A DNA stretch of 35,664 nucleotides from Saccoglossus kowalevskii (lineage: Eukaryota; Hemichordata; Enteropneusta; Harrimaniidae). The DNA is taken from NCBI RefSeq assembly GCF_000003605.2, contig NW_003120933.1, positions 203,295 to 238,958 of the forward strand, in the 5' to 3' direction. The position numbers and the translations under genes were made by a program. The notes beneath the pieces were generated by a model that was not told the origin of the DNA, made no database searches, and worked only from the letters and a program-made list of their open reading frames with translations. Shown here piece by piece: positions 1 through 32,111 of the stretch. Every line of letters begins with the position of its first letter. The stretch's first letter is position 1.

Positions 1-1025
1 CCAGTCCTACCTAGAACAATCTGAGTTCATACCATTCCTACCTAGAACAATCTCTGTGCATACCAGTCCTATCTAGAACATTCTCAGTGCATCCCGGTCC
101 TACCTAGAACAATCTGAGTGCATACCAGACCTACCTCGAACAATCTGAGTACATACCAGTCCAACCTATAATCATCAGAGTCCATACCAGTCATAACTAT
201 AACCATCTATGTGCATACCAGTCCTACCTAGAACCATCTGAGTGCATACCAGTCCTACCTAGAACAATCTGAGTACATGCCAGTCCAACCTAGAACAATC
301 TGAGGGCATACCAGTCTTACCTAGAACAATCTGAGTGCATACCAGTCCTACCTAGAACAATCTGAGTTCATACCATTCCTACCTAGAACAATCTCTGTGC
401 ATACCAGTCCTATCTAGAACATTCTCAGTGCATCCCGGTCCTACCTAGAACAATCTGAGTGCATACCAGTCCTACCTCGAACAATCTGAGTACATACCAG
501 TCCTACCTAGAACCATCTTAGTGCATACCAGTCATATCTAGAACCATCTGAGTGCATACCAGTCGTACCTAGATCAATCTGAGTGCATACCAGTCCTAAC
601 TAGAACCATCTGAGTGCATACCAGTCTTACCTAGAACCATCTGAGTGCATACCAGTCTTACCTAGAACCATCTGAGTGCATACCAGTCCTACCTAGAACC
701 ATCTTATAGAATACCAGTCGTACTTAGAGCAATCTGAGTGTGTACCAGTTCTACCTGATCAATCAGAGTGCATACCGGTCCTACCTAGAACAACCTGAGT
801 GCATACCAGTCATACCAATAACAATCTGTGTGCATACCAGTCCTACCTAGAACCATTTGAGTACATACTAGTCACACTTAGAACAATCTTAGAACAATCC
901 AATCATATCTAGAACCATCTGAGTGCATACTAGTCCTACCTAGAACAATCTGAGTACATACTAGTCCTACCTAGAACCATAGTAGTGCATACTAGTTCTA
1001 CCTAGAACCATCTGAGTACATAGCA
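1..1025. repeat. 31-bp minisatellite with an 11-unit higher-order period
   Basis: About 33 head-to-tail copies of a unit containing CCAGTCCTACCTAGAAC then AATCTGAGTGCATA, 31 bp in total. Copies differ by scattered substitutions and degrade toward 840-1025. Positions 1 to about 155 reappear almost unchanged from position 342, including the variants CATTCC, ATCTCTGTGC and CATCCCGGTCC. This gives a higher-order period of 341 bp, which is 11 units. The array is cut by the window start, so its full length is unknown. No coding frame is preserved through it. Confidence 0.95.
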
Positions 1026-1183
1026 GCTCATTTAAGAACCTTCCCTGTGTTTACTCAAATGAGCAATTTCAGCTTTAACTAAGACCTTAAAGTCGTATCT
1101 GTCACCGATTAAGACACGTGTTCTCTATAATATTATGTACTAGATTAAGATAGCTGTTCTATGTAGAGTAATATTAACATTAC

Positions 1184-4808: not shown

Positions 4809-5954
4809 GTAACAAAGAGTAGGCATTTACTACTTGCAGTAGACAATATCTGTTGCTTAGTAACGCGTGCTACCAATTGACTTAGACACGTAATCGCAAA
4901 TAAAAATTGACTCCACGTATTGAAATTTATTATTAAATTATTAAACACCATGTATCATCAACGGCAATCGCATTATGGATTGACTTAAGCAATCATTGAT
5001 AAATACCAAAAACACCTACTTAGAGGCAAGTATGTTTGTTTTCGAAAAAGGCAAAATGATACACGCAAATAATTTACAATGTAGTACACACGGTAGGCAA
5101 CAAGCCGAGAGCTTCAAGTCATAAATTCGAAAATCTAAGGCATACTTGTTTGAGAGAGTAAATGATGACCAAACTACCATCTTGAATGAACCGGCTTATG
5201 TCATGTGGTCTAATTTAACCAATTAGAATGTACTTGTCAGGAAAACAGCATGTTACTTTCAGAGCCGCAACGGAAAAGTTACGAAAATGATTATAAAAAA
5301 TTACGATTTTTGACGTACAGTGCATAGAAACGAGTGCCTCCCCCGCAAACGTAACGATTCTAAATCCAACCATTAAGAACGATAATGCGCTCCGATTGGC
5401 AACAAAAAACGTTAAAATTATCCCACTTCCACGAAAAGACGAAGTTAAATAAGACACAAAGTATCGATTTGATTAACAATGGGCAATCTTAGTTCTTAGT
5501 AGTATGAAAAATGAGATGACCTTTACTGTCTAATTGCAACAAAGAAACATACACTTCCGTGACGTAGTTCCGAAATTCCTATTTTGAAATATAAAGATTA
5601 ACATGGACAGCGAAAAAGTAGCTCTCGCCTACGCTGCCCACCTTGTTCCATTTGTTTGTGTGTTTTCCCATTAACGCCTGTTGAGTGCACGATTGAATTT
5701 TATTCAATTCAACTGAAATGGACATGTGTCTGACTGTAATAACGTGTTCGTACACTGGCACGCTTCATCAGTTTGGTGATACAAATGTTTGTCTGTCTGT
5801 CTCGATTATTGCCCAGTTTTGGTTTTCCATAAACAATTGTTGTTTCAGGGGTGTTGTTTCCTAATCAGCGATTTCATAACACCCACGTTATTTTTTCAGC
5901 GAAAGCTCGATCGACTTTTTTGTGTTGGAAAAATTATGATATTTTACCTGAATT
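4809..5954. other. Intergenic, nothing recognised
   Basis: AT-rich sequence without a supported gene. The small reverse frames at 5215-5457 and 5579-5761 lack splice or protein-family support. Confidence 0.5.
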
Positions 5955-5958
5955 TTAA

Positions 5959-6065
5959 ATGGCGGCAGTCGTCGCGCCGCGTCCTGTTCGATATGGGACT
6001 CATAGCGACGTATACAACGCGTGTAAAATACATTCGAACACGCGCCATGCGACGACCACCGCGCT
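5959..6065 (-). mobile_element. TTAA-flanked inverted-repeat element, family B, copy 1
   Basis: A 107-bp element between TTAA tetranucleotides at 5955-5958 and 6066-6069. Its ends are ATGGCGGCAGTCGTCGCG and GCGACGACCACCGCGCT, the same terminal repeat as family A. The interior is different and matches, in reverse orientation, the copy at 21723 (GGGACTCATAGCGACGTATA, ACGCGTGTAAAATACATT). Confidence 0.87.
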
Positions 6066-6069
6066 TTAA

Positions 6070-9000
6070 GTTTGAAATGTGGCAAAAGAGAAAGAATGTT
6101 TAACAGCGCCTATGGGATGTTTTCCCCGGCCAACATGGGATGGGCAATCAACGCATGAATTGAAACAGTACTTACTGATTGTAGGGTCATATGAAAATTA
6201 TGTTTGGGTTAGTCACTGTGAATGTTTTTTTCTTCTTTGTCTTTTTATTGCAAGTGCACCTATTTAATGTTAAACCAAATTCCACGCATGAGAATATACG
6301 CGACATCTTTCAATCAAAATGTAACATGACACACACTGGTTTCATCAAATCTAGTCTGACCAGGATATTGGTGACTTTGTTCCAAAGTTTAACACCCCGT
6401 GTTGAATTGAACACCGAGGTCAGATCCTATCAGAGCTACCGAACGCTATCGGAAGTTACCGAAACGTACCGATCATAGGTTAGCGCAGTTGTCATCACGA
6501 TTCCAAATATCGGTTAAAACATGTATACAAATTTATTGATTTTTTACACTTGCTGGTCGGATTTATTCGAACTCGATATAGATCGATGAATTTCAATAGA
6601 TATACTCTTATGCTCAAAGTCGGATTCGTCACTGTGGTTGTGTGCATGCCTTAATATTTCTCTTGATCCTGAGTCTCGTGCATCATGTAAGTCGTTGCAT
6701 ACGGGAAAAGGGCTCGGGCGAAACCTGACTGCGATCGAAGGTAATGCACGCAGCGCTCCGGTCAACTCGAGTAAAGCGACACACTCGAAAGCGATGGTAG
6801 CGAATATTTGTGTATTTTTTTTTTTTACATTTTTCAGGAACAAGATTTTGATAAACGTTAATAGTTAGGAACAAGCAGAAAGGACGATGTTTGGCAATGG
6901 CGGAATGATACTGGGTAACCCAGTGCGGCTGTGACACTAAGACAGACAGTTCACCACCTGTGGAATCTTTTCAACTTTCTGTAGTTTCATGTTTATATCC
7001 GCTAACAATGATATTAGCACTGATTGCAAACACTTCGCAGGGGATAAATTTGAAAACAAAAAATATGCACAGAGAAATAATCTTACATGGAATATGTCAG
7101 AAAATAGATTTATAAACAAATATGTCTAACCCCAATAGTTATAACAATCAAACCCAAAGTCATTGAACTCATATGCGCAGCGTTTGGTTTATTGTAGGTT
7201 GTAGATTAAAATCATAGACTTATTAGTGGACACAATTCCCCCGGATCACGTCTATGATCATCTAGTGCCCTGCTTTGGTGTCCAAAAACTCAGATCACGA
7301 TTAGATGTTTGTAAGAACAGTTGTTTTAGTGAGACATGGTATATGATTCGGAATAGAACTGCGGCATCGTAGAAACAACGCAGGATGTGATTTGCATAAT
7401 TTGGTTGCGCAGCAACGTCATCAAGGATCTAGAGGACAATTAATAAATAACCTTTTCTTCAGACGTCATCCGGCTAATATTGAGCATTTACAGAATTACC
7501 GAAATGTGATGACATTTTAGATTGACCCCAGGAAGGTGGGTGTTGCGGGAAAGACCAACAACTGTGTTGACAAGGGAAATTAACGCGCTGTCATTTACAC
7601 AACGAGTCCGTCTAATCCGTCTCTCAAAACGTCAAACGAAAATAAGCAACGTTCTCATTCCAATCACGTGACCAGAGCTAATATTCGTTATAGGACGCGG
7701 TAGCTATCAAACTAATAGCAAGAACAAAATAACGCCCCGGGCACCCACCGTCCAGGCCTCAGTTCCCAATGGCGGATTAAAAAGGAGACAGAATTTCCCC
7801 CGCAACCAATTTATAGGAGTACTGTTACGATGTCACGAAAATGCTTTCTGAACTAGTTAGTAAAAAAAACGATGCGCAAGATACCGTGATGTGGCCTAGT
7901 ACGTAACCATGGAAACCATCTTCGAAACGATATATATATATACGTATTGATTAAAGAGAGGTGAGCACCGACAGATGCACAGTATAACAGAGTAATGTAA
8001 AACACGTATATTTCGTTTTCAAATCCATATATCACACGTAACACACTCAGTTTAATTACCCGGATGTCGCAATATGGGACACTCATTGTTATTAGTCATA
8101 GTAACCACACTACTTTGAAGGAGAAAGATAGAGATTTCGTTCTCATGTAGAATGTAACCGTAGACGCACATTAATGTTAAGAGGTTACACTTCGAAATTA
8201 CCAGTTTTTGTTGGTAATTGGAAGGTCGACGACGTTAGAAAAGCGCAAAATGCGTACTGACTGAAACAAGCCCGTTTGAAAGCAGAAGTGGGTTGGTGGA
8301 AACGTAACAATATAGAGGCATGACCGATGTATGTGTCCGTGTTTCCTAATGATGGGTTGTATTGTTAATGTTGCGAAGGATTGTTATTAACCCGACGCTA
8401 AAAGGGTACAACTTGGCGAGGTCCACGTAGTGTGCAATAAGATGGCGATAATGGTCTCACGTCCTAATTAGCCGCCAGTGTACCATTCGCTGTACTTCAC
8501 CACCAATCATTGTACCACTCGTCATCTGTTTGAAACCCAGAAACCGTCATTTTGGAGAGACCTATATACATGCGAACCGGCGTTTAGGGACATTTCTCTG
8601 TTGCTAGGCACCGAGAGAGTACTCAGGTCAAAGTTTCTGTGAAGTTTACGCGAGAACGGCAACGGTCGATGTGCGTGTGCCGGGAAGCACGTTGCTACTA
8701 TCTCCACTTCCTGTCAATCTGTGATCTTTGCTACAGTTGTACCGCTGTAAACCGCTTTACGTAGAGTTCGCGAGTCAGTCAAAATCGCGAGATTTTATTG
8801 CAGTGATTTTTCTGCTGCTGTTTACGGCATGGAGTGCCATTGACTTTTTGTTGTTTTTTACGAACCATGCGAAAAAATAATCAAATCATGAAAATAACTA
8901 GCAGTGAAAAGTAAACGATTTCCACAGCACAGAAACACGGTGAAAAAAATTGTACTTGTGTTTGGTCCTTTGAGGTATGAGCTGTGCGCTTCCCGAATTC

Positions 9001-10169: not shown

Positions 10170-10343
10170 ATGAGAATTGGTGTACTCGTTTTAGCGTTAG
10201 TTGTCTTTTTAACCGACTCACACACTGTGTCCCCTCTCGCCTATGACAGGGATTATTTGGACCGAAACGGCTACCCAGAGGACGATGAGAACGACTACAG
10301 AGCCCTGCCGTACTCTCTGGCTACGCGGACCAACGACGAACGG
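10170..10343 (+). CDS. C1QTNF12/ERFE-like: Exon 1: signal peptide and acidic N-terminus
   Basis: 58 codons starting [19 protein letters not shown], a short n-region followed by a hydrophobic core, typical of a secretory signal peptide. An acidic stretch follows with PEDDENDY, and the exon ends TNDER. The ATG has A at -3 and follows a TATA box by 97 bp. The exon ends in phase 0 before GTAAGT, a strong donor. A GTG-initiated extension of four codons exists but would put extra residues ahead of the signal peptide, so the ATG was chosen. Confidence 0.8.
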
Positions 10344-16563: not shown

Positions 16564-16614
<51 letters not shown>

Positions 16615-19600
16615 NNNNNNNNNNNNNNNNNNNNNNNNNNNNNNNNNNNNNNNNNNNNNNNNNNNNNNNNNNNNNNNNNNNNNNNNNNNNNNNNNNNNNN
16701 NATACAGAGTTTGATTGGCTGTGGATGTTTCGTGTATTCGTCCTCGCTGCATATGGGATAGATGATTTTCCGTACAATTGCGAGATCTCGCGAGATGCAT
16801 GAAAGACGCGCGTCGAACGTCTGCCGCAAAAATCGAACGATTTGATTTTGAACTAGAATTTCTTTATTTCGTAGCTTACATTGACCGGCCGATCTTCGAC
16901 AGAGGAATATTGCTTCCGAATACCCTTACTTAATCGAAATTGCCTATCATCAAATGTGGACAGCACATTATTAAGCATGGAAATGTCCCCGAAATACTTT
17001 CGCGTTTGTCGAATCCCTCGCGATGTTTGACGCGACTACGACGCTATGACCTTTGTTTGTCCTGTTTTTACGTTCGATTTCACGCACAACGCGTGATTCT
17101 CGCAGTGAACGGAAAATGGTCTATTTTCGAGGTAGTTTTATTGTGAGACGTAGCTGTACTAGGCTAGGGAAAAATATACGAGTCAACTTATCTACAGGGA
17201 AAAAATATGTTCATAAAAAAACTCGCACTCAAAATGATTTTGATAGAGAAAAAGAGAGAAAAAAGACAAGTGACAGCAGCGTTATCCTAAAAAACTTCAA
17301 AGCACAAAACTAAACTGTTTTGTTTTCATTTCCTCGCCTAGGTTTCTAATGGCCAATCCTTTACAAAATGAATGTGACGTTTTTGAAATATACATCATGC
17401 ACCCAATTTCAATTCGGGGAATCACTTCATAATGTGGATTTCACCGAAATTGACGCATTGACTGGCTGGTCGTCACGTTAAAATTCCATCACGTGGGGTC
17501 ACAGATCGTTCAAGTCCATCTTAAAATTTACGAGATCACAAAGTCATCATCATATTCTGCGCGTGACATGTGACGTCACTTTTACGAGCGTGACCTATGA
17601 CCCACTTTTCCTCCTCTGAGGTTTCCACATCTCAAGGTCAATCTACAAAATTTGAAAATCTATTAAACAACTGATGAGTATCTCTGTGCAATGGCGCTGT
17701 TCTGGCGCCAGGAATTGACCGATATCACCATGGGGAATCGTAGTAAGTAGTCCTTCGAGATTTGCTTCGATACTTGATAGTTTGTCCCAGTGCGCATATT
17801 TCAGCACAATACTAACACTAAACATTACCTTTCATCCGGCACGGTTAATAAACTAGATGGCATGTTTGCGCTCTAGGCACACCGTGCATCTTCCGTACAC
17901 GCCATCCACCTTCCCATTATCCCCCTTCTCTTGTACGTATTCCAGACTACAGCTCAGTAGCAGTCCCTCTCCCATCTAATCTGTTGCCTAGAACCGGGGG
18001 TTAGGAGCCCCATGTACGTACTCTCTACCACCACAGTCAGGAGCCCCTCCTATTTACGTATTCCACACTATAGATGGAGGTTCCTTCTCACGTACGTATT
18101 TACTACGAATAGGGGCCATCCTTCTTGTACGTATTCCATTCCATGAATAAGAGCCCCTCCCATTGTATTGTATTCCACAAATCAGATATATACTAGTATT
18201 TTTGTTTATTTGCGATAGATTCCTTCTCGTTCCCAATGGTGAAACGGATTGACACTGCAGATGACAGTGGCTAGAACGAACTGTTTTTTTTTAAAGAAAA
18301 ATAAAACTAGTAAAACCCATTTAAGTTCATTCGCTCGACATGAAAAGAAATTATGAAAATATCAAATGGGTTTTTAAGTTACTACGAAATTAGATAGCCA
18401 GCCAAAGACAATGATTTTCTGATCTTTATATTTCGGCAGTGGTAATGAGATTAATTTTCAACATTTCAGCCAAAATACTTGATGGAAAAAACGTATATAT
18501 ATATTTTTTTTTTCTGTAACCGCGTTCCGTGATACCGGTAATTAGAGGACGTTATTGACTGAAAGTCACGTGAACACCATGACGTCGACAGATGGAAGAC
18601 TTACAAATAACCCGATAATCGCAGGCTAATCCATTCCTCATCAACGGATTCTTGCGGCGCCATTTTTAACAAAACGCGACAGGACAGTTACGTTGTTTGA
18701 ATAGTAGTTCGCTGTCTCCTCCATTGACAGGCGTCCCCAGGGAGCGCCGCTCTCAGAAAACATAAATTCAAGTCATTTTCCTTGACATACAGTAATTACC
18801 TTTAGTATATCTGCTGGGATTTTTTAATAGGTCTTCACCGCTCGCATTATTTAACCTGAACAATAGCACACTAACCCGGTCACTGAGTGGGGGAATTCTA
18901 TTATTTTCCGATACTATTTGGCCTGTCACGTTATTGCGCTGTTGCTGAAGCACTCCGTTAAACTGACGATAGACAATACCCAGTTTTAAGTTGTATTTTA
19001 GTTATCATGGGTGGTTTAGTCACCACTTTACGAATCAACAAAGTCGAAGAGATTCAGAATTGTGAATAATCTGTACGTGCGAAAGATGCGAAAATATGAT
19101 CGGAAGTTATCGTCGCGCGGCGCGTGTTCGAATTTTGTGCAAACAAACAAACGCATTTTATGCGCGTTATACGTTAATTAGGACACGTATTACACTCGAC
19201 GCGTCGCAAAACCACCTTCCTTTATACGCTAGAACAAAAGAAAGCACAAGAAACATGATATATTGAAGATAATATTTGGTAATCGTAGTCCTAAATAACT
19301 ATTAAAAATAGCTAGACGTTTCGAGCAATGGCTCTTTATCGATAGCATAGAAGCAAGTGTGAAACAAGAAACATAACGCGTTTATGTAAAAGACCATCAC
19401 CATTAAAGCAAAGACTGATGCCACCCATGACTTTTCATGATCGACGTAAACCTCCATTTCGCCTTGCTGAATGTTTAGGATATACTAAGTACGACTTTCC
19501 AAACGTATTTTTGAGTTTAAATAATCGCCTGTGTATTTTTACAAAGCTGCTCAGTGGCAATCACTTCTGATATACATCGGGATAAATTAACTTGCACCGA

Positions 19601-21438: not shown

Positions 21439-24400
21439 GCAGCGAAATGGACAAATTGACTCGCTTGTTACTAAATATAAACATCACACAATGAACAATC
21501 AACCATTTTTCTTCTTGTATTTTATTTTATTTATTCAAAAAATCTGTACCACAATAGATCAAAATTTGGCGAATATCCTGGTACTTTCTGGAGCAGGGCT
21601 ACTTTTTTTTTAATTTACGTGCATTTCAAAGTTTGTTTCTTTCATTTTTTTAATTTTTACGGAGAAACCAGAAAAGGGCTGTGCGCCCTTTGAAATAGCA
21701 ATAATCAAACCAGCGCAATTAAAGCGCGGTGGTCGTCGCGCAGCGCGTGTTCGAATTTCATGTAAATAAACAATGTATTTTACACGCGTTGTATACGTCG
21801 CTATGAGTCCCATGTCGAACAGGACGCGGTACGACGACTGCCGCCGTTTAAGTATGGTGATTTTATATTTCTCTTGCGGTTTTCTTATTAATAATATGTG
21901 TAGTGACACCTGTTCGCATAACTTAAAATTTGATTAAAAAAAACACTTGCTAATTTTCTTATTTTGTTTTAAACATATTATATAATTACACAAATCATTT
22001 CAACGTGATGTTATAAATACCATCTTAATTAGCTTTCAGCTTATTTAAAAAGTGCGCTTTAACAGGTCCATCTCATTCTACAGCAATTTCATTCTTCTAT
22101 AATAATATAATCTATGCACAGTTCGTATTTACATGCATGACTGTGTTCCGCTATCGACGATTCAATCCATCGCTATCGACGATTTGCATACCGCATTTAA
22201 GTATAAAGTTCGAGCTTCTGCTCTGTAATAGATGGCGTCATCGGTATCTTTTGTTAACATGGCTTTCCCACGCTTCCCTGTTTATGTCGAGGCGGTCAAT
22301 TTCCCGTGACGAAAAGTTTTGATAAGCTGTAAAAAATAACCACGCAAAAATGGTGAAATGTCACGCGCGAATCCCACGCTATCACACAGTCGACGGTGTG
22401 TGGCATTTGCCAAACATCGGCCATTTTGATTTTCATTCTATCGTTGGTTAAGGTAGAAGCCTACTCATAAATTAAAAAACCCAGAATTTATTCATTTTGC
22501 AATAAATTGTACTCCAATCCAATAAAAGGATATTGACCTAAAAGAATATTGGGGTTCACCTGACCAGCCTTTTTTTGAGAAATTGATGGTTGTATTTTAG
22601 TGGAAATTCGCCATTTTGACACTATTACCACAGGTTCTTATGGCAATATCTCAAAATCTAGCCTGATGACATAGAGTGAAAAAATCCTATATTGTTAATG
22701 ACGGAGTACTTTTTGTTGTTCTGAATTATTTATAAAATCTGGGTTTTAAAAAGCGTCAAAAAAAAGCAATTTTTTTTAACATTGTGTTTTATGGAATCGT
22801 TCTAAAAATAGCAATTTTCAGGAAATATTAGAACGCGTTTCTCAAAAAGCATAACTGTAATACACAAAATAAATGCTATTTCATTGTACATTAGACAATA
22901 GATTCATGATTATATGAATATGAATTTTCTTCAGTACAATGGCCTCAGGCCTATTGTACAATAAATCAAAAAAAAAAAAAAATACACAAAGAAGTGTAGA
23001 AAAATACATACAGAGGGATTCCTTTAAATAATTGTTGAATCTACTAGTCACAACTGGTTAAGTAGACTCTGTGTTTAGAAGCGTAGAATACAAATTTTGA
23101 AATTTGAAGTACAGATAAGTTGTCAAACTGCATTAAACAAAGAAATTCATGATTATACATAATAAACTAATGAACATTGTTATGTGATTTATGACCAATT
23201 TTGTCGAAAATTGTGACTAGGCTTCTACCTTAAATATTTTTTTTCGCGGATGGATATTATTATTTCAGTTTGTGGCTTTATACACGTGAATCCACGTGCG
23301 AGGTTATTTTTCAAAAACACGCTTGTAAAGTTAAAGTGTTGTTGATTTTCAAACATTTAAAACACTTCTCATGGGCTTGCAGTTGTTTTCTTCGATCAAT
23401 GGACTTGCGTCTAGCAGTACTTCTGCGGTTCTTCTGACATTCATTAGATTTATCTGCCCATACTTTAAATACTTGATGGAAGTTCTGTCCATTTCTCTCA
23501 AAAGATGTTAAAAGGTCGATGACATCACTCCGTGCCAGTTGTAGCTTTTTTATCATTCTAGTTATTTGTGGAATAGCTTTCTTTTTACTTTCACATCTTA
23601 CTTAACGTGTGTCTGCTAAAGCTAGTGTCGACAACACCTTAGGTCACCAGGCCCAGAAAGTCACCTTCATATACATCATACCCATGTTTCCGAAATAAAA
23701 GAACACACGCCACTCCGATATCCAAAGGGTTGACTAGCTTCTCTTGACTTCAGTATGAATTCAGTGTCTCGTAATATCATACTGAAATAGTCTGTATGTG
23801 TCCGATAAATTCATTTGTTAGGATTCTTTTTTTTCGGGACGAGTTACTAGTACATTCTGTGGGATTATAAATTTACCCATAACTCGTTTGTGCACCTTGT
23901 GAACACTTTCCACTGATGCCCCTCCCGATATGTCGATGTCGTCGACCTTAGCATCGTTTGTTATCATATTTATAGAGCTTCCATTGGTCTTACAGCCTTT
24001 GCACTTGACGGCACGTCACCGTGAGTTGATGTTCTCGACCACCAGCAACGTGGCTCCTTAACATCTGCTCGAAGACTGTCTTTTAGAACAAAGGTCACGT
24101 CTTATTGCCCTTGCAGCTGTTACGGATCAATTCATGCCGACCAAGTGTCTTGAATCATTATGCAACCTTCTCTGGAATAAAACAAAAACAAAACAAAAAT
24201 ACGTACGTATTCACCCAAATTTACAATTTTTTCCCCCGCTGTTTTGTTGTTATATCTAGTAATACAGTCCAGATTAATAAGATAAGCAGAACGCAGAAAA
24301 AACAATTCTTGAATATTTTGTTAGAACGCTACTACCCTCCATGATAACAGAACATTATAAAAGACATCCCTTTTTTTACATTTTTAAAGTGAACCACGTG

Positions 24401-27400
24401 ACCATAGGTTAATGACCTGATGGAATAGCTGATCGTCGTATTGACAATCCTGAGGTCAATTGGATGGCCCGCTGCTTAAAAGCACGCTGTTAGGGGGTCA
24501 AGCACTTCATTGGCGCTCTCCAAATCACCTGCCCGTGGAATTGAGTCGAGTGATACGTGCAAACAGCGGTGCCTTTGATGCATGACCTTGTTTGGTGCTA
24601 CAGCAGAAAAACTCAAGTACTTTCTGATTTTAGGCAGTTAGTCGGTGTGAAAATTGATCCTCGCATGCGGTCGGGCGACTCAACAGCTAGCTGACGATAA
24701 TGTTGAATGGCGGAAAATATAAAATGAACACTGTAATAGAACTTTAAGTTAAAAAAAGAATTGCACGTTCGTCTGAATTGATATAACATTTACCCAATAA
24801 AGCATCTTAGATATTCGAATATAAAGGTATTTTAAAGTAAACATTTCCGCAATAGCTCCGTGTGGCACGCTGCTTAAATGTATCGCCCACACAGTTAAAT
24901 TTATGGTTCGAAATTTATTTTCAGAGGAATGAAAAAATCTGTTCGAAGCACTTGTTTTAAAATATTTATTTATGAATAAATTAAAAACAAACAAAAACAC
25001 CGTGTTTCTTAACGAGACGCATACACAGGTTTTCCAGATGTGTGATGATCGGTATTTTTTAAAACACACTTCACGCTGGAATGCATATATTAAAACGCGA
25101 ACGAAATCAATGATCTCAGATGTACATGAAGTCTTTATTTGAACTCGATAACTTCACGGGGATATACACCTCTTATCGTAAGATACAAAAATTACAAAAC
25201 ATTACGATCAAATGTAATTTTAATATGATGTTCCAGAAGCATGGAGAAGTGCAAACGATTTCTATTCTGTGCCAGTCTCGTTAGATTGGTATAGAAATGG
25301 GTCATCGCAATCTGGGACATAGGCCTGTAAAATACTGGTACGGGAATATGAATATGTCGTGATTGGTGGAACGCAGATACCTTGGTGAAATAGATGTATG
25401 GAATATGTCACTTCCGAGGAAAACTTTGTTTGTTGATTTTTGGAGATATTTTATTATGATTTCGCCAGGTATCAAGTTGCACTTTTGATACATATGTTCT
25501 AACGCTCATCCTACAACAAAAACACAAACGTGTTTGGTAGAGCACCAAAATGTCGGGTGAAATATTGCTAAAACACGAATATTGCGATAATACCGAATCT
25601 GTGAGGATACCGACATTGGAAAAATCGAAGTGTTACAAAGTACATCAATGCTTGGAGAAAACTATATTGCAAGAACACCAGTTTGGAAATAAAGATTGGG
25701 TATTGCACAGACACTAATGTTGACACCAATTACGAAGGGCATGTCAGGAATACTTAACACTTAGCCGGAGAATAACGTAGAAAGGGGGAGGTATGATATA
25801 CGTGTTGTCAATGTGCTTCCAACGCTCGGTAGTGTTCCTCTGACGCATGCAAGGAGATTGACCACAAGCATCGAGTACAATAAATACGGACAGGATAATA
25901 ACTATGTAAGCGTAATTGGAACGCCTCGTCTGACGTGAGTAGTTGAACGCCTAAATGGTAGGGGGTGGGGTGAGCTAATGAGTAATGTAGGTAACTATGC
26001 CTACTAACTGGTGTAACTCAGAATGGCGTGAACCGTGAACTTCTGGACCGGCTAGTGCTTGCGGGCACGGTGCGGTATGGGAATTTGCCTTGGGATCGAC
26101 ACACTTGCAGATCTTTCCGGGAGAATGATGTGTAGAGGCGATGAGAAATCATTAAGCCACGCGGAGATAACCATCAAATAAATTCAAATCGTTATAAAGT
26201 GATTCCCGTGTATGGTGTCGACTGGCCAGAATAGATAATGAACTACGACACCCTTACTTAATTTAGACTATACGACACGCGCGCCTGTCAACGCTGATTG
26301 CTCATTCAAGTTCTTGCAACTTCTCTTTATCGATGCGAATATTAATGAAATAACACTAAATTACGTGGTTATCTACGTCGTATCATCTCTGAACCCAGCA
26401 CTGCGAATGTCAAATATAATAAATGAGATAGCTGTGAGTGATATGACCGAGGTTAAAGTTGATGGGCGCAACAACGGCCCCTTTGTTCAGCTTGATCGAG
26501 TGCATTCGAAAAAATCTATAAGTGTTGCTGAGAAATTCCACAAAAGCTGGTGTCGTTTATTGACTAGTCAGAGAACAGTGCGTCAAACGATAAAAAATAT
26601 AACTGGAGACGTTTTATATACACAGGGCTATTATTCACCACATCCACGTGATGCACGTGATACCCGTTGCTTAATCACTCTGAGGCAGAACAGAGAGTCT
26701 CAAAGTTGCTACAGCCTGATGGACGAACATCAAAGTGGGGTTAAAAATTGAACATAATACCATTAATGGAACGTTGCCATCATCGTAAAGTTTACTTTGC
26801 CTCAAGTGTTTCTTGAAAGAATGTGAAACAAATCCACACACACACAGGATGATTATCCTACTGGCTTGGGTGAAATGTACACTAAACACACTTCAGTTTT
26901 ATCCACCATTCTTTCATTTTTTCGATTAAAGTTTTATAATCGCATGTGCAACAATTTTACATTTTAATTAGTTCGATGTCAGATAATTTATTACTTTTAG
27001 TGTTTCATGATAATGGCACGATGGCACATTATTGTCTAAATCTTATATGCGCGGCGTATGCCGTTCCGATTCATGCGACTGCACAATCTGCATTTAAAAA
27101 AATAATTCAGGATGACGTTATTTTTTGAAAGTCTGTTAAATTATGAGTTTACTTCAATTAAGAACCCATCTACTAGATTTTCTGCTTCAAGAACATAAGC
27201 TGCGCCCGGTCTTTGTCAACTTTTTTTTGAAGCCAAAATGACCATTCAAATATTGAATGCGTAAACACATGGCTTTATTTCCTGTGAAATGGCGTATATC
27301 TATGATAACTGGAAAACCCTTTATATACCCCTTAACATTCAACTCAAATACCGGATGTGATTATACCCGGATGATAAAATACCCGGATGAAAGATACCTC

Positions 27401-30400
27401 GTTTACCGTAAACTGTTATTTAATTTTACAGTCTATGGACGAGAATGTGAGGTTTGTCAATCCATTGTTGAGCTGGCAACAATTCCTTAACCATCCACAT
27501 AACAACGGAAGAAAATCGAACAAACGGCAACGGGACCGCAGTATGCTGGTAAACCCCGTGACGAGTATTAACAGCGCCCTCATACGACAATAACGAGTCT
27601 GTCCCACTAGTTCTCGTCGTACGTTGGCGCTGTCCAAATTTGTTTCGTTTTCATTTTATTTTCAGTCCACAAGTGTAGACTCAAGGCGAACGTGGATCGA
27701 CTTTGTACGCCACCATGACAGAACGAATGGAAAGAAAGAGAAAAAGAAAGGAAGAGATCGCAGTAGTGTGGTAATTCTGATAATATAAATACATCATTTC
27801 GTTATGACCTGGGTTCTGTTTAAAACTTACAAAGTCGATAATGTGACGTCACCTTTTTTTTAGTTTCTAAATTATTTTAGACAGGGAAATTACTAAACAC
27901 TCACGTTTTCAAAATCTGAACACAAATATCGGGGTCCTCGAATTACGTGCAAGCAAACAATGTATTTTACACGGGTTCGGTACGTTGCTATGGGACCCAC
28001 ATCGAGCACGAGGTGTCGAGCAGATCACCGCACTTTAATTTTAAAGAGCATCATTTACCCTTCATAGCGTGACGACTGTAGCGCTCCAGAAGCGCCTCTA
28101 CCTTATTATCCTTAGCACGGATACCCTCATTTTTATTTGCATACTGTCACTCACTTTGTGTAACGTTTTGTCCAGAAGTAATATTCAATCACGCCCAGCT
28201 AGTAGTATACCTTCCGAAAGTATTCACTATCTCTCTTATTTACGCCTTGACTACGTGTTCGCATACAGCCCCGTGATTCAAACTCACGCCCAAAAATGCA
28301 ATGCCACATTTTACCACCTCACAATCAAAACATGACGTCGCTAATTATATATTATTAGAATGGTCCCCCAGGTCCAGCAGGTCCAGTCGGCCCTAGGGGT
28401 CCGCCGGGTCCACGTGGTGCAGAGATTACAAAAGAAGACATGATGATAGAGTTCAAGAAAATGGTAAAAGGTGAGATATATTGTATTTCGTATCTATACC
28501 AAAAAATAACACAATGTTTTATCTGTGATATATTGTATTTGTTGAAATACTATAACGCATCACCGGTCCCATGAGACTTTGTTAAACTAAACTTGCTACA
28601 ATGTCGTGCTACGAATTCATTGTTTTCGTACATAGTGGCTAACCGCACTGTAATATTTGTTTATGTGTATAGAGGCAGCAGAGAAGCGAGCTGAACGAAT
28701 CATTGCATCGCAGGTACGTCACATCCGGCTCAGCTATTTTTTTTCCATATTCAGTCTGAACGACGCACCTTCATTTGCATATTTTTAAACGTGGCGTTTC
28801 CATTGACGACATAACATTTTGCAACATAATCTACATCAATCAATGCTAAAGCTATGTGAACCACATATGTAGTTGATTGGAGACTGTCCCTAGCAGTGCA
28901 ACTGTCTAAAGTTAATGGCTTGTAAATTAAAAAGGGGTATTCAATCGTTGTGAATTTAATTAGGAAACATTGTCACAACAGGGCTGATGAATAACAACGT
29001 ACGGTAAAAACACAAATGCTCATGGGTAAACGCTTATTTGTATACAACGACACGCTACGACCGTCTGGCGCATGCGTAGGTGACGAATCCTCCGCTTTAA
29101 CTATATACTTCGGAATTTGTTGTTATTTTAACAAATATAGGCATGACTCATTTGCAATCAGTTTTTCTTACTGGATGCCTCCAATGAAGTGCTGATATTT
29201 CCGTCGATATTTGTGATTCGCTGTCACAGTCGCGGTTGTTTGTGACGAGAGTTGGGCCAAAATAAAAACAAAACAAAACAATTATATATATAAATATGCA
29301 AATGTAGGTATCAGACTGCATATTCAGCTTATGGACAATATTTTTTCTAGATCTAAAACACAGATAAAATAATATTCAATACTGTTCGGATCGAATAGTA
29401 GTACATTTCTTCCTTGAACAACATATTCTCACTAAATATTGCCATCCATAATTAAAAAGTAAATATTTATTTTGTAGTGTCCCGGATGCTTGAACCCAGT
29501 TGGAACCCAGAATGGAACACAAGTCAGCGCCCACTACGACTGGGATGACATCGAGGTCATACCACGTATTCCTGCAGCCTTTCATTGCAAACTTCAATCA
29601 AATGTCGACATTGCTCAGAAAAGTCTCCAAGAGGTTACTAACTTTCAAATTGTGAGTAAATGATTCACACACGGCTAAATAAACGAACAAATTACACACA
29701 CAATCAATGAATGGTCGGATTTTGTCACGTGATATGCAAATTTGTCTTTGCCGTAGCACTAATGATATCATGTGAATATGGTCGCACACTGAATAAGCAA
29801 TCACGCACAGAAAGCTAAAGAAGCTATACAGTAAAAGCGACCTTTGTTTTTTTTCTCTACAGCCATTCGCTGGTGGTGCGTTCAAGCGGGGTCAAGGGTT
29901 AGATATTAAATCAGGGCGATTTGTGGCGCCGAGGACGGCGATATACCAGTTTTCTGCCAATATGCATATTTTCCATCGTGTTCCCAAGAAAAACAAAGAG
30001 GGCAGGAAACTACGGAGTCGAGACAATGTTCGGGTGCTGATTTGCATAAACTCTCTCTGCCATAGGCACACGTAAGTACCAAAGGGGCCATATATAACAC
30101 ATGGTTTCATTTTATTCAAAATGTCCGATTGGCGGTCATTTCTCGCATTACTTGAATCATAGACCCTAAAAATCATGATTTTTAGCGTCTATGCTTGATT
30201 CCCTGTTGTTTTTTCTAATGAATGTAAATACATGCACAATAAAGAGTTCCCGTTTTCGAGATTACAGAGTTCCTTTTTTTATAAAGAAAACTGCAATATT
30301 TTTACCAAGTAAAATTATATTTATTTAAAGTTGTTATTCATTCATTTATTCAATAAATATAAATGAAATGCAGAAATATAGAGAATAGAGTATACTATGT

Positions 30401-32111
30401 TTTGCTAATTATTAAAATTAGTAATGATGTAAATACGAAATAACACGTTCTAGACAACTTGGTACATTACTAAATTTGCTTGTAGAAATCTGTTGTTTAT
30501 ATTTTTCCCCAAAAACGTAAGAATCTTACAATGTCGTAAACGGAAAGTTCTCGTCGTTGATTGATTGCAAAAGTATTCTTCTGCTTATGTGAACCATATC
30601 TTTGTCGTTGGGTAAAACCCATGGAGCGACACGTATGACGTCATATCTGCATTGCACACACCAATGTTTCTTTCCACTTTGTATCTGAAGTAAAACTTCA
30701 TATGGCCCAGAAACCACAGTATAAATCAATGATTGAATCGCATTAAACGGATTTAGAAAGACTGCAGATGTAAAGCTTAGATAGATGTTTTACAAACTTC
30801 AGTATACATTGCCTTATGAATTATTGGTGAACCTCTTTTTTCAGATCGCTAGAGTTTATCTCAGGACTGGAGAGCAACAGTCGGGTTTTTACGGTCAACG
30901 TAAATGGGCTTCTGCAATTAGAGGTATGCCGAACCTATCTTTGTATATCTTTGTATTATGCTATCCTATATTTGACGATGGGCGTTCTAGAATTTCCGTA
31001 GTCATATGCCGTAATCTGGTTGTTGCATGGTACACAAGTATATAATATAAGGTTATTACATAGGAAGCCCATGAACTATGATCAACTGCACGCAGTTGAG
31101 CGGGGGATGTGTGTATCGACAGACGAAAAGAATCAAAAATAAAATCTATAAAAAATACTAGCTTAAACAATATTAGTTGCTGTTTAAAATTTTGCCAAAG
31201 ACTTACTTTTATATTACCGGTATCACTAGAATAAATAAAAAAAAACTGCAAAAATTGACCCCATTTACGAATATTTAACGGTTGCCCGAAAGCACGGCAC
31301 AGTTAGAGGCGTGGCCTATTTAGAATGTGTCAACAACCAATCACAAGACTGGTTACGATCCAGTCAGTGAGCGAGGCTAACCGAGTCGTAAACTCGGTGC
31401 GATTCTTAACCAGTCGTAATATAGTCTCGCGTGAGTTGCGCGTCACAGAGCGCAGTGGGTGATTAAAGATGATAGATTACAGACACAGAAATTAGCAAGA
31501 ATGCCACTGTATTCAAAGCACAAAACGAACGCAATGCACGCTCTATGAATAAACAAGAACACTAGCAAAACAACACAAGACAACACTAAGCATTCATTTG
31601 ACAGACTTACCGATGGCTTATATTCTTAGAAATGTAAGCATGTATGACGATGAGAAGCTGCATTGTTCGAGTTATGAACATTAAATTATGTAAACATCGA
31701 GTTACCATAATGACCACGCCCATTTTGCGAAACCACATCGAAACTGTAACTTGATGTTCAATTAACAGTGAACAGAACTTCGAGTTACGGGCAACACACA
31801 TTTTTGTTTTTGTTGCACGTCCAGCTTTGGTAACTCTAACTTTAATTAATTGTTACCCGAACTTCGAGTTATGCCTAGCAATAAAGACCACACCCTTAGC
31901 AACCACGCTTATGTTGAAACCTCTGAAACCTCAGGACTCTAACTTGAAGTCCAACCCTACCGCATAACGATGTATTTTGTTTAAAATGTTCTTATTTTCG
32001 TATTTGTTTCAGGCTGAACAATATGCGTCGGTGTATATTGACAACAGCTGCAGCAGAGCAGTTTCGATACAAAGCGGTTCAGACTTCACAGGAATCATGA
32101 TCGGTGTCTGA
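10170..32111 (+). CDS. C1QTNF12/ERFE-like: Adipolin/erythroferrone-like secreted C1q-domain protein, nine exons
   Basis: Join 10170-10343, 27432-27548, 27666-27770, 28359-28470, 28673-28713, 29478-29651, 29863-30071, 30845-30923, 32013-32111. All introns are GT-AG, and the frame is continuous for 369 residues plus TGA. Order of parts: signal peptide (about 1-19), acidic segment, two related basic segments (about 59-132), Gly-X-Y stretch (133-152), helical linker (153-183), Cys-Pro-Gly-Cys and acidic segment, then C1q head from AAFHCKL to [10 protein letters not shown]. Family hallmarks include [43 protein letters not shown] and [10 protein letters not shown]. The C1QTNF12 (adipolin) and ERFE (erythroferrone) family consists of secreted oligomeric regulators of metabolism or iron in vertebrates. 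An invertebrate copy may precede that split, so I do not assign it to either. Vertebrate members are about 300-355 residues; the extra length comes mainly from the doubled basic exon. Transcript structure is inferred from sequence. Confidence 0.85.
11399..11719 (-). CDS. Uncertain reverse-strand open frame with a cysteine-containing domain-like pattern
   Basis: Open for 106 codons from the codon after a TAA (+ strand TTA 11720-11722) to the stop at 11399; the first ATG is at 11665. The frame contains [15 protein letters not shown], then [16 protein letters not shown], a WSC pair of aromatic and cysteine residues, and VCGNSGG near the end. This spacing of A..A....FAL, C and C-x-x-GG resembles small extracellular cysteine-containing domains that are common in marine invertebrates, but I cannot name the family. 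No strong splice acceptor was found just upstream. It may be an exon of a nested gene, a decayed fragment, or chance. Confidence 0.25.
   Translation of the reverse strand, partial: TTKYWFICGKIGTLSDGNMEGATRLARDFRIQYFALKVSSWSCASWFSTTEQPGDVETLADAVAYADTSEFRQRRSYVCGNSGGIVKNTTNTLTRANCYYALRQSR
13978..14055. repeat. 26-bp tandem repeat, three units
   Basis: Three exact-length units of AATTAATATTAC.AAATATATTCGAT, at 13978-14003, 14004-14029 and 14030-14055, with one to three substitutions between them. Very AT-rich; no function suggested. Confidence 0.9.
15300..15836. mobile_element. Diverged relative of the 778-bp TTAA element
   Basis: The right end reads GTAGTCTACC followed by TTAA at 15837-15840, like the end of the element at 22452-23229. 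Matching internal words in the same order include GATGGTTGTATTTTA, ATGGC..AGATC..TACCA..TCTCAAA and a GTTATG/GTCATG..GATTTATGAC block close to the right end. The left border is uncertain. An AT-palindromic stretch (about 15527-15560) lies inside. Confidence 0.5.
16566..16614. repeat. TA dinucleotide microsatellite at an assembly gap
   Basis: About 24 TA repeats that run directly into unknown bases, so the true length cannot be read. The gap is probably caused by this repeat. Confidence 0.95.
16615..16701. other. Assembly gap, 87 unknown bases
   Basis: A run of N. Frames drawn across it are artefacts. Its length may be only nominal. Confidence 0.99.
16822..17098. repeat. Dispersed repeat, family G copy 2 (277 bp)
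   Basis: Same length as the copy at 2584-2860, with scattered substitutions and the same ends (TGCCGCAAAAA to a GATT). It lies 120 bp after the N gap, inside intron 1, in the same orientation as the first copy. Confidence 0.75.
17925..18185. repeat. Degenerate minisatellite around GTACGTATTCCA
   Basis: The word TACGTATT or GTACGTATTCCA recurs near 17933, 18053, 18094, 18126 and, decayed, 18165. It alternates with AGGAGCCCC or GAGCCCCTCCCAT blocks. Spacing is irregular (about 30-60 bp), so this is an old, decayed tandem array. Confidence 0.6.
19096..19218 (+). mobile_element. Decayed TTAA-type element, family B, copy 2
   Basis: Contains TCGTCGCGCGGCGCGTGTTC, AATTTTGTGCAAACAAACAA and GCATTTTATGCGCGTTATAC, in the order of the copy at 21723. 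Both TTAA flanks and the outermost terminal bases are lost, so the borders are approximate. Confidence 0.55.
20095..20220 (-). mobile_element. TTAA-flanked inverted-repeat element, family C, copy 1
   Basis: A 126-bp element between TTAA at 20091-20094 and 20221-20224. The ends are AGCGGGGGAGTCGTCACC and GGTGACGACCCTGCCGCT. The interior has TGTTTACAAACAAGCGTCTA followed by CCCATAAGCCCATGG, the reverse of family C copy 2. The terminal repeat resembles families A and B except that the GTCGTCGCG core is GTCGTCACC. Confidence 0.87.
20787..20943 (+). mobile_element. TTAA-flanked inverted-repeat element, family C, copy 2
   Basis: A 157-bp element between TTAA at 20783-20786 and 20944-20947. The ends are AGCGGATGGGTCGTCACC and GGTGTCGACTCCCCCTGCT. 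The interior has GGCTCATGGGTAGACGCTTG, TTGTAAACAACGACACGCTA and CGCATGCGCAGG. It lies only 563 bp from copy 1 and in the opposite orientation. Confidence 0.87.
21090..21275. repeat. Degenerate ACCACAATG-type short tandem repeat
   Basis: Irregular copies of a unit of about 20-25 bp built from GATATACCACAATGAGCACC variants (near 21105, 21128, 21176, 21240). Divergence is high and borders are approximate. Confidence 0.5.
21405..21437. repeat. (GTT)11 microsatellite
   Basis: Eleven perfect GTT units within intron 1. The polycysteine frame it creates on the + strand is an artefact. Confidence 0.95.
21723..21847 (+). mobile_element. TTAA-flanked inverted-repeat element, family B, copy 3
   Basis: A 125-bp element between TTAA at 21719-21722 and 21848-21851. 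The ends are AGCGCGGTGGTCGTCGCG and TACGACGACTGCCGCCGT. The interior has ATGTATTTTACACGCGTTG and ATACGTCGCTATGAGTCCCA. It is the best preserved family B copy. Confidence 0.88.
22452..23229. mobile_element. 778-bp TTAA-flanked inverted-repeat element (family D)
   Basis: The left end GGTAGAAGCCTA and the right end TAGGCTTCTACC are perfect 12-bp inverted copies, flanked by TTAA at 22448-22451 and 23230-23233. The terminal repeat is unrelated to that of families A-C. The interior is AT-rich, with a 14-base A run near 22968, and has no frame of useful length, so it is non-autonomous. A diverged relative ends at 15836. Confidence 0.88.
27432..27548 (+). CDS. C1QTNF12/ERFE-like: Exon 2a: basic linker segment, first of two related exons
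   Basis: 39 codons, phase 0 at both ends, between a TTTTACAG acceptor and a GTAAAC donor. It encodes [13 protein letters not shown], then [20 protein letters not shown] and RDRSML. The pattern W..F followed by a cluster of K and R corresponds to the segment just before the collagen-like stretch in vertebrate ERFE/adipolin, where prohormone-type cleavage is known. The basic cluster here is dense, but no perfect R-x-K/R-R furin site is present. It shares W..F, H, NG[RK]K, K and RDRS with exon 2b. Confidence 0.8.
27571..27633. promoter_or_regulatory. Hairpin inside the 117-bp intron between exons 2a and 2b
   Basis: ACAGCGCC (27571-27578) pairs with GGCGCTGT (27626-27633), and TACGAC (27583-27588) pairs with GTCGTA (27616-27621). 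A symmetric 4-by-4 internal loop separates the two stems, and the apical loop is 27 nt. In the transcript this would bring the donor of exon 2a close to the acceptor of exon 2b. A role in splice choice is inference only; it could also be a decayed inverted-repeat element. Confidence 0.55.
27666..27770 (+). CDS. C1QTNF12/ERFE-like: Exon 2b: basic linker segment, second of two related exons
   Basis: 35 codons, phase 0 at both ends, between a pyrimidine-rich TTTTATTTTCAG acceptor and a GTAATT donor. It encodes STSVDSRR, then [16 protein letters not shown] and [11 protein letters not shown]. It is the closer of the two exons to the vertebrate family pattern (a tryptophan, F-V-R, then NGKK). Similarity to exon 2a covers its C-terminal 26 residues, and the identical RDRS near the end fixes the alignment. 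Either exon can be joined to exon 1 and exon 3 in frame. Confidence 0.82.
27905..28034 (+). mobile_element. Decayed TTAA-type element, family B, copy 4
   Basis: The right end reads TCACCGCACT followed by TTAA (28035-28038). The interior has TGCAAGCAAACAATGTATTT, TACACGGGTTCGGTACGTTG and CTATGGGACCCACATCGA, parallel to the copy at 21723. The left terminus has decayed, so its border is approximate. The element sits in the intron between exons 2b and 3. Confidence 0.65.
28359..28470 (+). CDS. C1QTNF12/ERFE-like: Exon 3: collagen-like stretch and helical linker
   Basis: Starts in phase 0 after ATTATTAG with N, then [19 protein letters not shown], six Gly-X-Y triplets plus a final G, followed by [17 protein letters not shown]. 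The short Gly-X-Y run is typical of the family, which relies on the C1q head for trimer formation. The exon ends after the first base of a codon, before GTGAGA. The amphipathic tail likely continues as a short helix or coiled coil into exon 4. Confidence 0.92.
28673..28713 (+). CDS. C1QTNF12/ERFE-like: Exon 4: short helical linker
   Basis: 41 bp, starting two bases into a codon (completing Glu) and encoding [13 protein letters not shown] before GTACGT. The composition is strongly helical. It is too short to be found as an open frame. The acceptor TGTGTATAG is modest, but phase agreement on both sides supports the exon. Confidence 0.85.
28931..29096 (+). mobile_element. TTAA-type element, family C, copy 3
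   Basis: The right part matches family C copy 2: GCTCATGGGTAAACGCTTAT, TACAACGACACGCTACGACC, GGCGCATGCGTAGGTGACGA and an end CCTCCGCT before TTAA (29097-29100). The left half is diverged. A TTAA at 28927-28930 is a possible left flank. It lies in the intron between exons 4 and 5. Confidence 0.65.
29478..29651 (+). CDS. C1QTNF12/ERFE-like: Exon 5: CPGC segment and start of the C1q domain
   Basis: 58 codons, phase 0 to phase 0, between TATTTTGTAG and GTGAGT. It begins CPGC, a likely disulfide or inter-subunit cysteine pair, followed by an N-G-T glycosylation sequon and an acidic segment DWDDIE. It then enters the C1q domain at AAFHCKL and ends LQEVTNFQI. Confidence 0.9.
29863..30071 (+). CDS. 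C1QTNF12/ERFE-like: Exon 6: C1q domain, central strands
   Basis: Starts after a pyrimidine tract ending CTCTACAG. It encodes [37 protein letters not shown], a basic loop ([12 protein letters not shown]), and [15 protein letters not shown]. These are conserved strands of the C1q fold, and the LICI.S.C motif is diagnostic of the adipolin/erythroferrone branch. It ends after two bases of a Thr codon, before GTAAGT. Confidence 0.93.
30845..30923 (+). CDS. C1QTNF12/ERFE-like: Exon 7: C1q domain, 79-bp exon
   Basis: One base completes Thr, then [20 protein letters not shown] and GLLQLE, between TTTTTTCAG and GTATGC. The correct frame differs from the long open frame covering this position, so the exon is visible only by splice phase. 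SLE.I.GLESNSR.FT..VNG.L.L matches the family closely. Confidence 0.9.
31347..31415. other. Nested inverted repeat in intron 7
   Basis: GACTGGTTA (31347-31355) pairs with TAACCAGTC (31407-31415). Inside it, ACCGAG (31380-31385) pairs with CTCGGT (31393-31398). It could be a decayed inverted-repeat element. No other copy was noticed in the window. Confidence 0.5.
31697..31907. repeat. Two diverged copies of a repeat about 166 bp apart in intron 7
   Basis: TCGAGTTACCATAATGACCA plus CGCCC near 31698 corresponds to TCGAGTTATGCC..AATAAAGACCACACCC near 31864. Each is followed by a TAACTTGA.GT.CAA block. GAACTTCGAGTTA also recurs at 31775 and 31859. It appears to be an old tandem duplication. Confidence 0.5.
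32013..32111 (+). CDS. C1QTNF12/ERFE-like: Exon 8 (last): C1q C-terminus and stop
   Basis: Starts in phase 0 after TTTGTTTCAG and encodes [18 protein letters not shown], then [14 protein letters not shown] and TGA at 32109-32111. S.F.G...G at the very end is the standard C1q terminal strand, so the protein ends at the expected place. No canonical AATAAA was seen in the first several hundred bases after the stop; the poly(A) site is unknown. Confidence 0.93.
   Translation, partial: AEQYASVYIDNSCSRAVSIQSGSDFTGIMIGV

Follow-up and report, generated by a model that had tools for sequence, protein, structure and literature searches.

The adipolin-like gene of the acorn worm Saccoglossus kowalevskii contains two adjacent, diverged and frame-neutral exons, here called 2a and 2b, each of which is, by alignment, the equivalent of one whole BMP-binding module of erythroferrone (ERFE), comprising a helix, a spacer and a cationic tail. 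In our judgement it is about an even chance that the pair represents a duplicated BMP-binding cassette whose copies are alternatively included, with 2b giving the usual form, and that the gene would thereby encode two versions of a secreted BMP trap. The gene lies on the + strand of the analysed DNA, a stretch of 35,664 nucleotides referred to below as the window, to which all positions refer.

Gene layout and relationship to adipolin and erythroferrone

As spliced from the window, the gene consists of nine exons and eight introns, all with GT/AG ends, and its frame is open throughout. Exon 1 (10170..10343) carries the start codon, a signal-peptide-like N terminus and an acidic spacer, ends in phase 0 and is followed by the donor GTAAGT; its hydrophobic start, judged by eye, is a putative signal peptide, and the exon can be aligned over its length with the N terminus of the Glandiceps talaboti protein. 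Exon 2a (27432..27548; 117 nt, 39 codons, phase 0-0), which is missing from the public protein model, is the upstream copy of the module of W..F helix and cationic tail, with W73 and F76 in the 369-aa model, and ends in KRQR-DRSML. It is separated from 2b by the shortest of the gene's eight introns (27549..27665; 117 nt, donor GTAAAC). Exon 2b (27666..27770; 105 nt, 35 codons, phase 0-0), the downstream copy, has W107 and F110 and ends in KKGR-DRSSV; it is present in the public S. kowalevskii protein and is the copy that Glandiceps matches. The remaining exons encode a short collagen Gly-X-Y repeat and the start of a second helix (exon 3, 28359..28470), part of this second helix (exon 4, 28673..28713), a cysteine-containing linker and the start of the globular head (exon 5, 29478..29651), the globular C1q/TNF-like head (exon 6, 29863..30071, continued in exon 7, 30845..30923), and the end of the head with the stop codon (exon 8, 32013..32110). 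The predicted proteins, all open, have 369 residues with both exons, 334 with 2a, 330 with 2b and 295 with neither. On re-splicing, the coordinates, AG/GT ends, 0-0 phases, adjacency, frame neutrality and protein lengths that a previous sequence-only reading had assigned to the two exons were reproduced exactly.

The 2b form is identical at 303/303 shared residues, from DYLDRN to the end, to the public predicted protein P0004 ('adipolin-like [Saccoglossus kowalevskii]'), which has 2b without 2a, exon 1 being joined directly to 2b. The next relative is P0005 of Glandiceps talaboti (72% identity), an annotated protein that also has no 2a. At its N terminus P0004 differs, with 29 residues before the shared DYLDRN, and would join inside exon 1 at the AG ending at 10249 (window 10248-10250); none of the six-residue words of this N terminus occurs in the six frames of the window. 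A start of the P0004 type would be without the signal-like start of exon 1; it may stem from an alternative first exon beyond the window, or else be a prediction error. In the first intron, which is 17 kb long, a (TA)24 run and, immediately after it, an assembly gap of 87 N occupy window positions 16567-16701.

At E<=0.001, 96 homologues were found, which include proteins of echinoderms, amphioxus and molluscs, the adipolin and ERFE of vertebrates, and one spider protein; those with names were mostly called adipolin, ADIPL, C1QTNF12 or erythroferrone, and several were hypothetical or unnamed. A tree was built from 46 proteins picked from these homologues, 23 of them from vertebrates. The 23 vertebrate proteins, adipolin and ERFE together, formed one group (support 86), with the acorn worms and echinoderms outside. 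The acorn-worm gene, falling outside this group, is therefore equally related to adipolin and to ERFE. It shares with ERFE (C1QTNF15, FAM132B) a W and an F three residues apart, a cationic stretch, a short collagen repeat and a C1q/TNF-like head, and its exon 2b has D at W+8, as in human D90. With adipolin (C1QTNF12, FAM132A) it shares the same layout and a convertase-like basic site in the segment, and the acorn-worm protein is annotated as adipolin-like. However, the segment is single-copy in the ERFE and adipolin proteins found, in contrast to the two exon copies of the acorn worm, and adipolin sits with ERFE in the vertebrate-only group. In addition, BMP binding, demonstrated for mammalian ERFE, is a putative property of the acorn-worm protein.

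In the predicted structure of P0004 (332 aa), the head extends from residue 181 on, with ten-residue block mean pLDDT values of 79-97, and matches C1QL1/2/3, cerebellin, the Caprin-2 C1q domain and TNF-family chains (TM by target about 0.6-0.75); the matches also include unrelated phage and spore-protein jelly rolls, a phage portal-tail chain being first by E-value. A helix at residues 66-79, modelled with moderate confidence (block mean pLDDT about 65), covers the W..F segment, and the second helix spans residues 120-146. By sequence, Pfam C1q matched 18 of the 46 family members and had no match in P0004, and the collagen repeat that follows the basic segment, read in exon 3, gave a Pfam collagen E of 0.02, below the curated cut-off. 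A search by sequence for solved structures at E<=0.001 returned none, and no RNA family was detected in the window at gathering thresholds.

Homology, age and conservation of the exon pair

The kinship of 2a and 2b proposed by the sequence-only reading was borne out both by their pairwise score, which exceeds that of shuffled sequences, and by an independent orthologue profile. Their local BLOSUM62 protein score is 57, whereas 5000 shuffles that preserve composition averaged 19.4 and peaked at 39. The profile was made from 66 distinct orthologue segments, with both hemichordates and duplicates removed and hence independent of 2b; a motif rule had extracted the segments from 80 homologues out of the 96, and the 16 that it missed were left out. 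When 1270 six-frame ORFs of at least 20 aa were compared with this profile, 2b was found with an E of 6e-10 and 2a with 1.1e-4, the next ORF having 1.2; there was no third copy of the module among these ORFs in the six frames of the window. In the 96 homologues, 86 proteins had one profile match, 10 had none and 0 had two (the profile being built largely from the same proteins), so that, as far as the proteins found are concerned, the earlier claim of a single-copy segment elsewhere is correct. A wallaby ERFE (P0070) in which three W..F motifs precede the collagen repeat was considered and rejected as a multiple-copy protein: by sequence only the last motif is the true segment, and there is one profile match.

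In 31 aligned codons of 2a and 2b, positions 1, 2 and 3 match 16, 19 and 12 times, respectively (shuffled means 8.0, 9.5 and 8.0), and the fractions of 10000 shuffles that reach these values are 0.0007, 0.0002 and 0.078. The positions that set the amino acid are thus held and the silent ones are nearly random, which makes the split look old and the protein kept. Neutral decay was simulated with 2b, rather than the ancestor, as the start and with indels ignored, a model whose outcome is compatible with a recent loss of use: in 20000 trials of decay to 50.5% DNA identity, 2983 exons stayed open, 60 of them with W and F, and 0 reached the profile score of 2a. Under milder decay, this score was reached in 0, 22, 310 and 3091 trials per 10000 at 60%, 70%, 80% and 90% identity, respectively. 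Given that the first two codon positions agree between the copies and the third hardly does, and that decay to the same divergence gave no 2a-like exon, 2a appears both old and selected, and its sequence has likely been kept by selection. In a codon-usage score, 15 of 4000 intron segments reached 2a, a test made weak by the fact that the accepted exon 2b itself scores like intron.

Individual residues and trees bear on the age of the duplication. Two sites that are S and T in 2b and Glandiceps are P and S in exon 2a, as they are in 37/46 (P) and 28/46 (S) homologues, and 2a pairs slightly better with amphioxus (score 60) than with 2b (57); these sequence comparisons lean towards an old split. 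The T before W, as in 2b, is also found in 12/46 homologues, and this site therefore dates the duplication little. In a likelihood test on 28 rows of a short alignment with a long 2a branch, a duplication confined to Saccoglossus scored 5.0 log units below the tree with 2a outside the 2b pair (p-AU 0.057, not significant at 5%), and a duplication in the hemichordate stem was 2.1 log units below the best tree. The tree dating leans towards an old duplication and is not decisive. Were the duplication to date back to the divergence of the two acorn worms, Glandiceps would be expected to have possessed 2a at one time.

Correspondence to the BMP-binding segment of erythroferrone

Human ERFE is described as having a hydrophobic helical segment at residues 81-86, with an essential W82, and a cationic segment at 96-107 that is required for activity, heparin binding and multimerisation (PMC10692919). 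Its helix H1 is given as the ligand-binding domain and occupies, in a model, the type I receptor site of BMP6; the W82A and F85A substitutions each abolish almost all BMP inhibition, D90A and N94A weaken it 2.5- and 4-fold, respectively, and dimer/trimer formation matters for potency, a fully monomeric form being >50-fold less active than the wild type (PMC10772735). Alignments place the W..F of both 2a and 2b at the equivalents of W82 and F85. This W is among 11 invariant columns in the 46 homologues, and the F is found in 44/46.

The two copies differ around these residues. After W, exon 2a has Q at a site that is hydrophobic (L, M, I, F or V) in 43/46 homologues, and it has no D at W+8, the equivalent of human D90, where 2b has D. 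The tail after NG is arginine-rich in 2a (4 R, 2 K) and lysine-rich in 2b (5 K, 2 R), with a net charge of +5 in both.

In the cassette reading that we prefer, i) exon duplication would have doubled the module of helix and cationic tail, ii) the cell would include 2a or 2b, 2a being spliced into some mRNAs, iii) the acorn-worm protein would bind BMP-type ligands, and iv) the 2a version would have a weaker or different grip. The versions may differ in affinity because 2a has Q after W and no D at W+8. Retention by heparan sulphate may differ as well, since one tail is R-rich and the other K-rich and a K/R-switched human ERFE kept its activity and bound heparin more strongly (PMC10692919); the 2a form would stay nearer the cells making it. 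If both exons were included, one chain would carry two grips 34 residues apart. Binding of BMPs by the acorn-worm protein is extrapolated in this scheme, since ERFE is stated to be the sole CTRP known to antagonise BMPs (PMC10772735). We put forward, tentatively and as something rather less than probable, the wider proposal that, outside the vertebrates, in which ERFE and adipolin later separated, an acorn-worm lineage diversified a BMP trap within one gene by doubling its ligand-binding exon, that using 2a, 2b or the two together adjusts the ligand preference, the valency and the retention by heparan sulphate of a secreted BMP antagonist, and that the form with both exons is a single-chain bivalent clamp on dimeric BMP.

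Use of exon 2a and alternative readings

No protein in the protein databases shared three 5-residue words with the 2a region of the 334-residue query, and a shorter 2a query against partial proteins gave one candidate, which failed to score. This search needs shared 5-residue words, and the databases are clustered at 90%, so that an isoform with both exons could hide in the P0004 cluster; as their entries are gene predictions, an exon that the predictor overlooked would not appear there either. Among the gene's eight donors, those of 2a and 2b pair most weakly with U1 (-5.3 and -5.1, the others ranging from -5.8 to -12.8), and they are the only two without G at +5. Regulated exons and cassettes often have weak donors. 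Nothing in the frame or in the 117-nt intron forbids the inclusion of both exons. A sterically blocked 117-nt intron was considered as an exclusion mechanism and rejected: about 53 nt before the acceptor are AG-free, so that the branch point could lie at a good distance from the donor, and steric exclusion is unsupported. A 16-bp tandem repeat of 3.4 copies (unit AAATACCCGGATGAGA; window 27346-27398) ends 33 bp upstream of exon 2a.

Variation at the same segment was found in other animals. Predicted isoforms of three vertebrates, Microcaecilia X2 (P0049), Acipenser X4 (P0053) and Polyodon X4 (P0054), are without the same cassette, in frame, and predicted variants of amphioxus (Branchiostoma; P0018 and P0023, 20 residues) and abalone (Haliotis; P0020, 18 residues) carry an insert precisely where the basic segment meets the collagen repeat. 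Taken together, the cassette-less isoforms of caecilian, sturgeon and paddlefish and the inserts of amphioxus and abalone suggest that variation at this exon may be of long standing. Like the acorn-worm pair, the variants of these five animals are in-frame changes at the boundaries of the same segment; however, in them the module is missing or an unrelated piece is added, and the W..F module is duplicated in none.

It is possible, though we doubt it, that 2a is a silent relic, an old duplicate formerly used and now never spliced in. The public S. kowalevskii and Glandiceps proteins contain 2b only, no protein with 2a was found in the databases searched, the GTAAAC donor is weak, and in 2a the residue after W is not of the usual hydrophobic kind and D is missing at W+8. 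However, the donor of the accepted exon 2b is just as weak, and 2a retains an open frame, a clean acceptor, phase 0-0, W and F; moreover, neutral decay from 2b gave a 2a-like exon in 0/20000 trials at the present divergence, in 0/10000 at 60% identity and in 22/10000 at 70%. Since decay never yields such an exon at the present divergence, any loss of use would be recent.

Constitutive inclusion of the two exons, producing a 369-residue chain in which two BMP-binding helices 34 residues apart would act as a bivalent trap, is unlikely. Using both keeps the frame, an intron of 117 nt is not plainly too small, and since multimerisation matters for the potency of human ERFE (PMC10772735), a second helix could help; against this, the public model joins exon 1 straight to 2b, and 0/96 homologues are two-copy proteins.

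The sequence-only reading had placed the segment where the proprotein is processed and suggested that choosing between the copies could alter cleavage or receptor binding; as a processing switch, the pair would act mainly on convertase cleavage ahead of the collagen stalk. The description of a duplicated, frame-neutral exon of ERFE/adipolin type in that reading stands, but the meaning given to it was incomplete, the stronger known role of the segment being BMP binding. A processing site fits adipolin, whose furin cleavage is placed by a review at Lys-91 in a KKXR motif (PMC12913486), but not human ERFE, where the site predicted for furin, RARR just ahead of Glu43, is found further upstream than the W..F/cationic segment (PMC10692919). 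The convertase-like KKGR-D of 2b and KRQR-D of 2a are aligned, and [KR][KR]xR occurs somewhere in 50/80 extracted orthologue segments. However, 30/80 segments are without the motif, the most conserved feature is W..F and not the basic site, and because both copies have a convertase-like site, the choice between them would not remove it; a processing switch is thus very improbable. Finally, chance similarity between two short K- and R-rich peptides is rejected, since the composition-keeping shuffles and the independent profile place 2a far above chance.

Alternatively used tandem duplicated exons are a known kind (PMC9741552, PMC9013439), and 236 mutually exclusive events, most of them called ancient, are reported for the human gene set (PMC9741552). 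Exons 2a and 2b resemble these in being adjacent and homologous, with equal phases, and in keeping key functional residues while others change; they differ in that no exclusion mechanism is visible at 2a/2b, a pair seen here as genomic sequence. Among the matches listed in a search of titles and abstract starts of open-licence literature, there was no report of such an exon pair in an ERFE or adipolin gene. Within these matches, what is new is therefore the location of the exon duplication in the active element of a BMP trap, the tandem exon kind being already known. Two diverged copies of helix and tail, both with W and F, would reveal which positions may vary, and make it testable whether BMP trapping is older than the vertebrate ERFE/adipolin split and whether exon choice is able to retune a ligand trap. 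The public acorn-worm gene model is likely to be missing one exon, 2a.

Repeats were also noted elsewhere in the window. Three ORFs at 5780-6103 (+), 21610-21933 (-) and 27893-28024 (-), the last in the intron between exons 2b and 3, read alike and are probably copies of a dispersed repeat. At the left end, window positions 1-1026 consist of an array of about 33 copies of a 31-bp unit.
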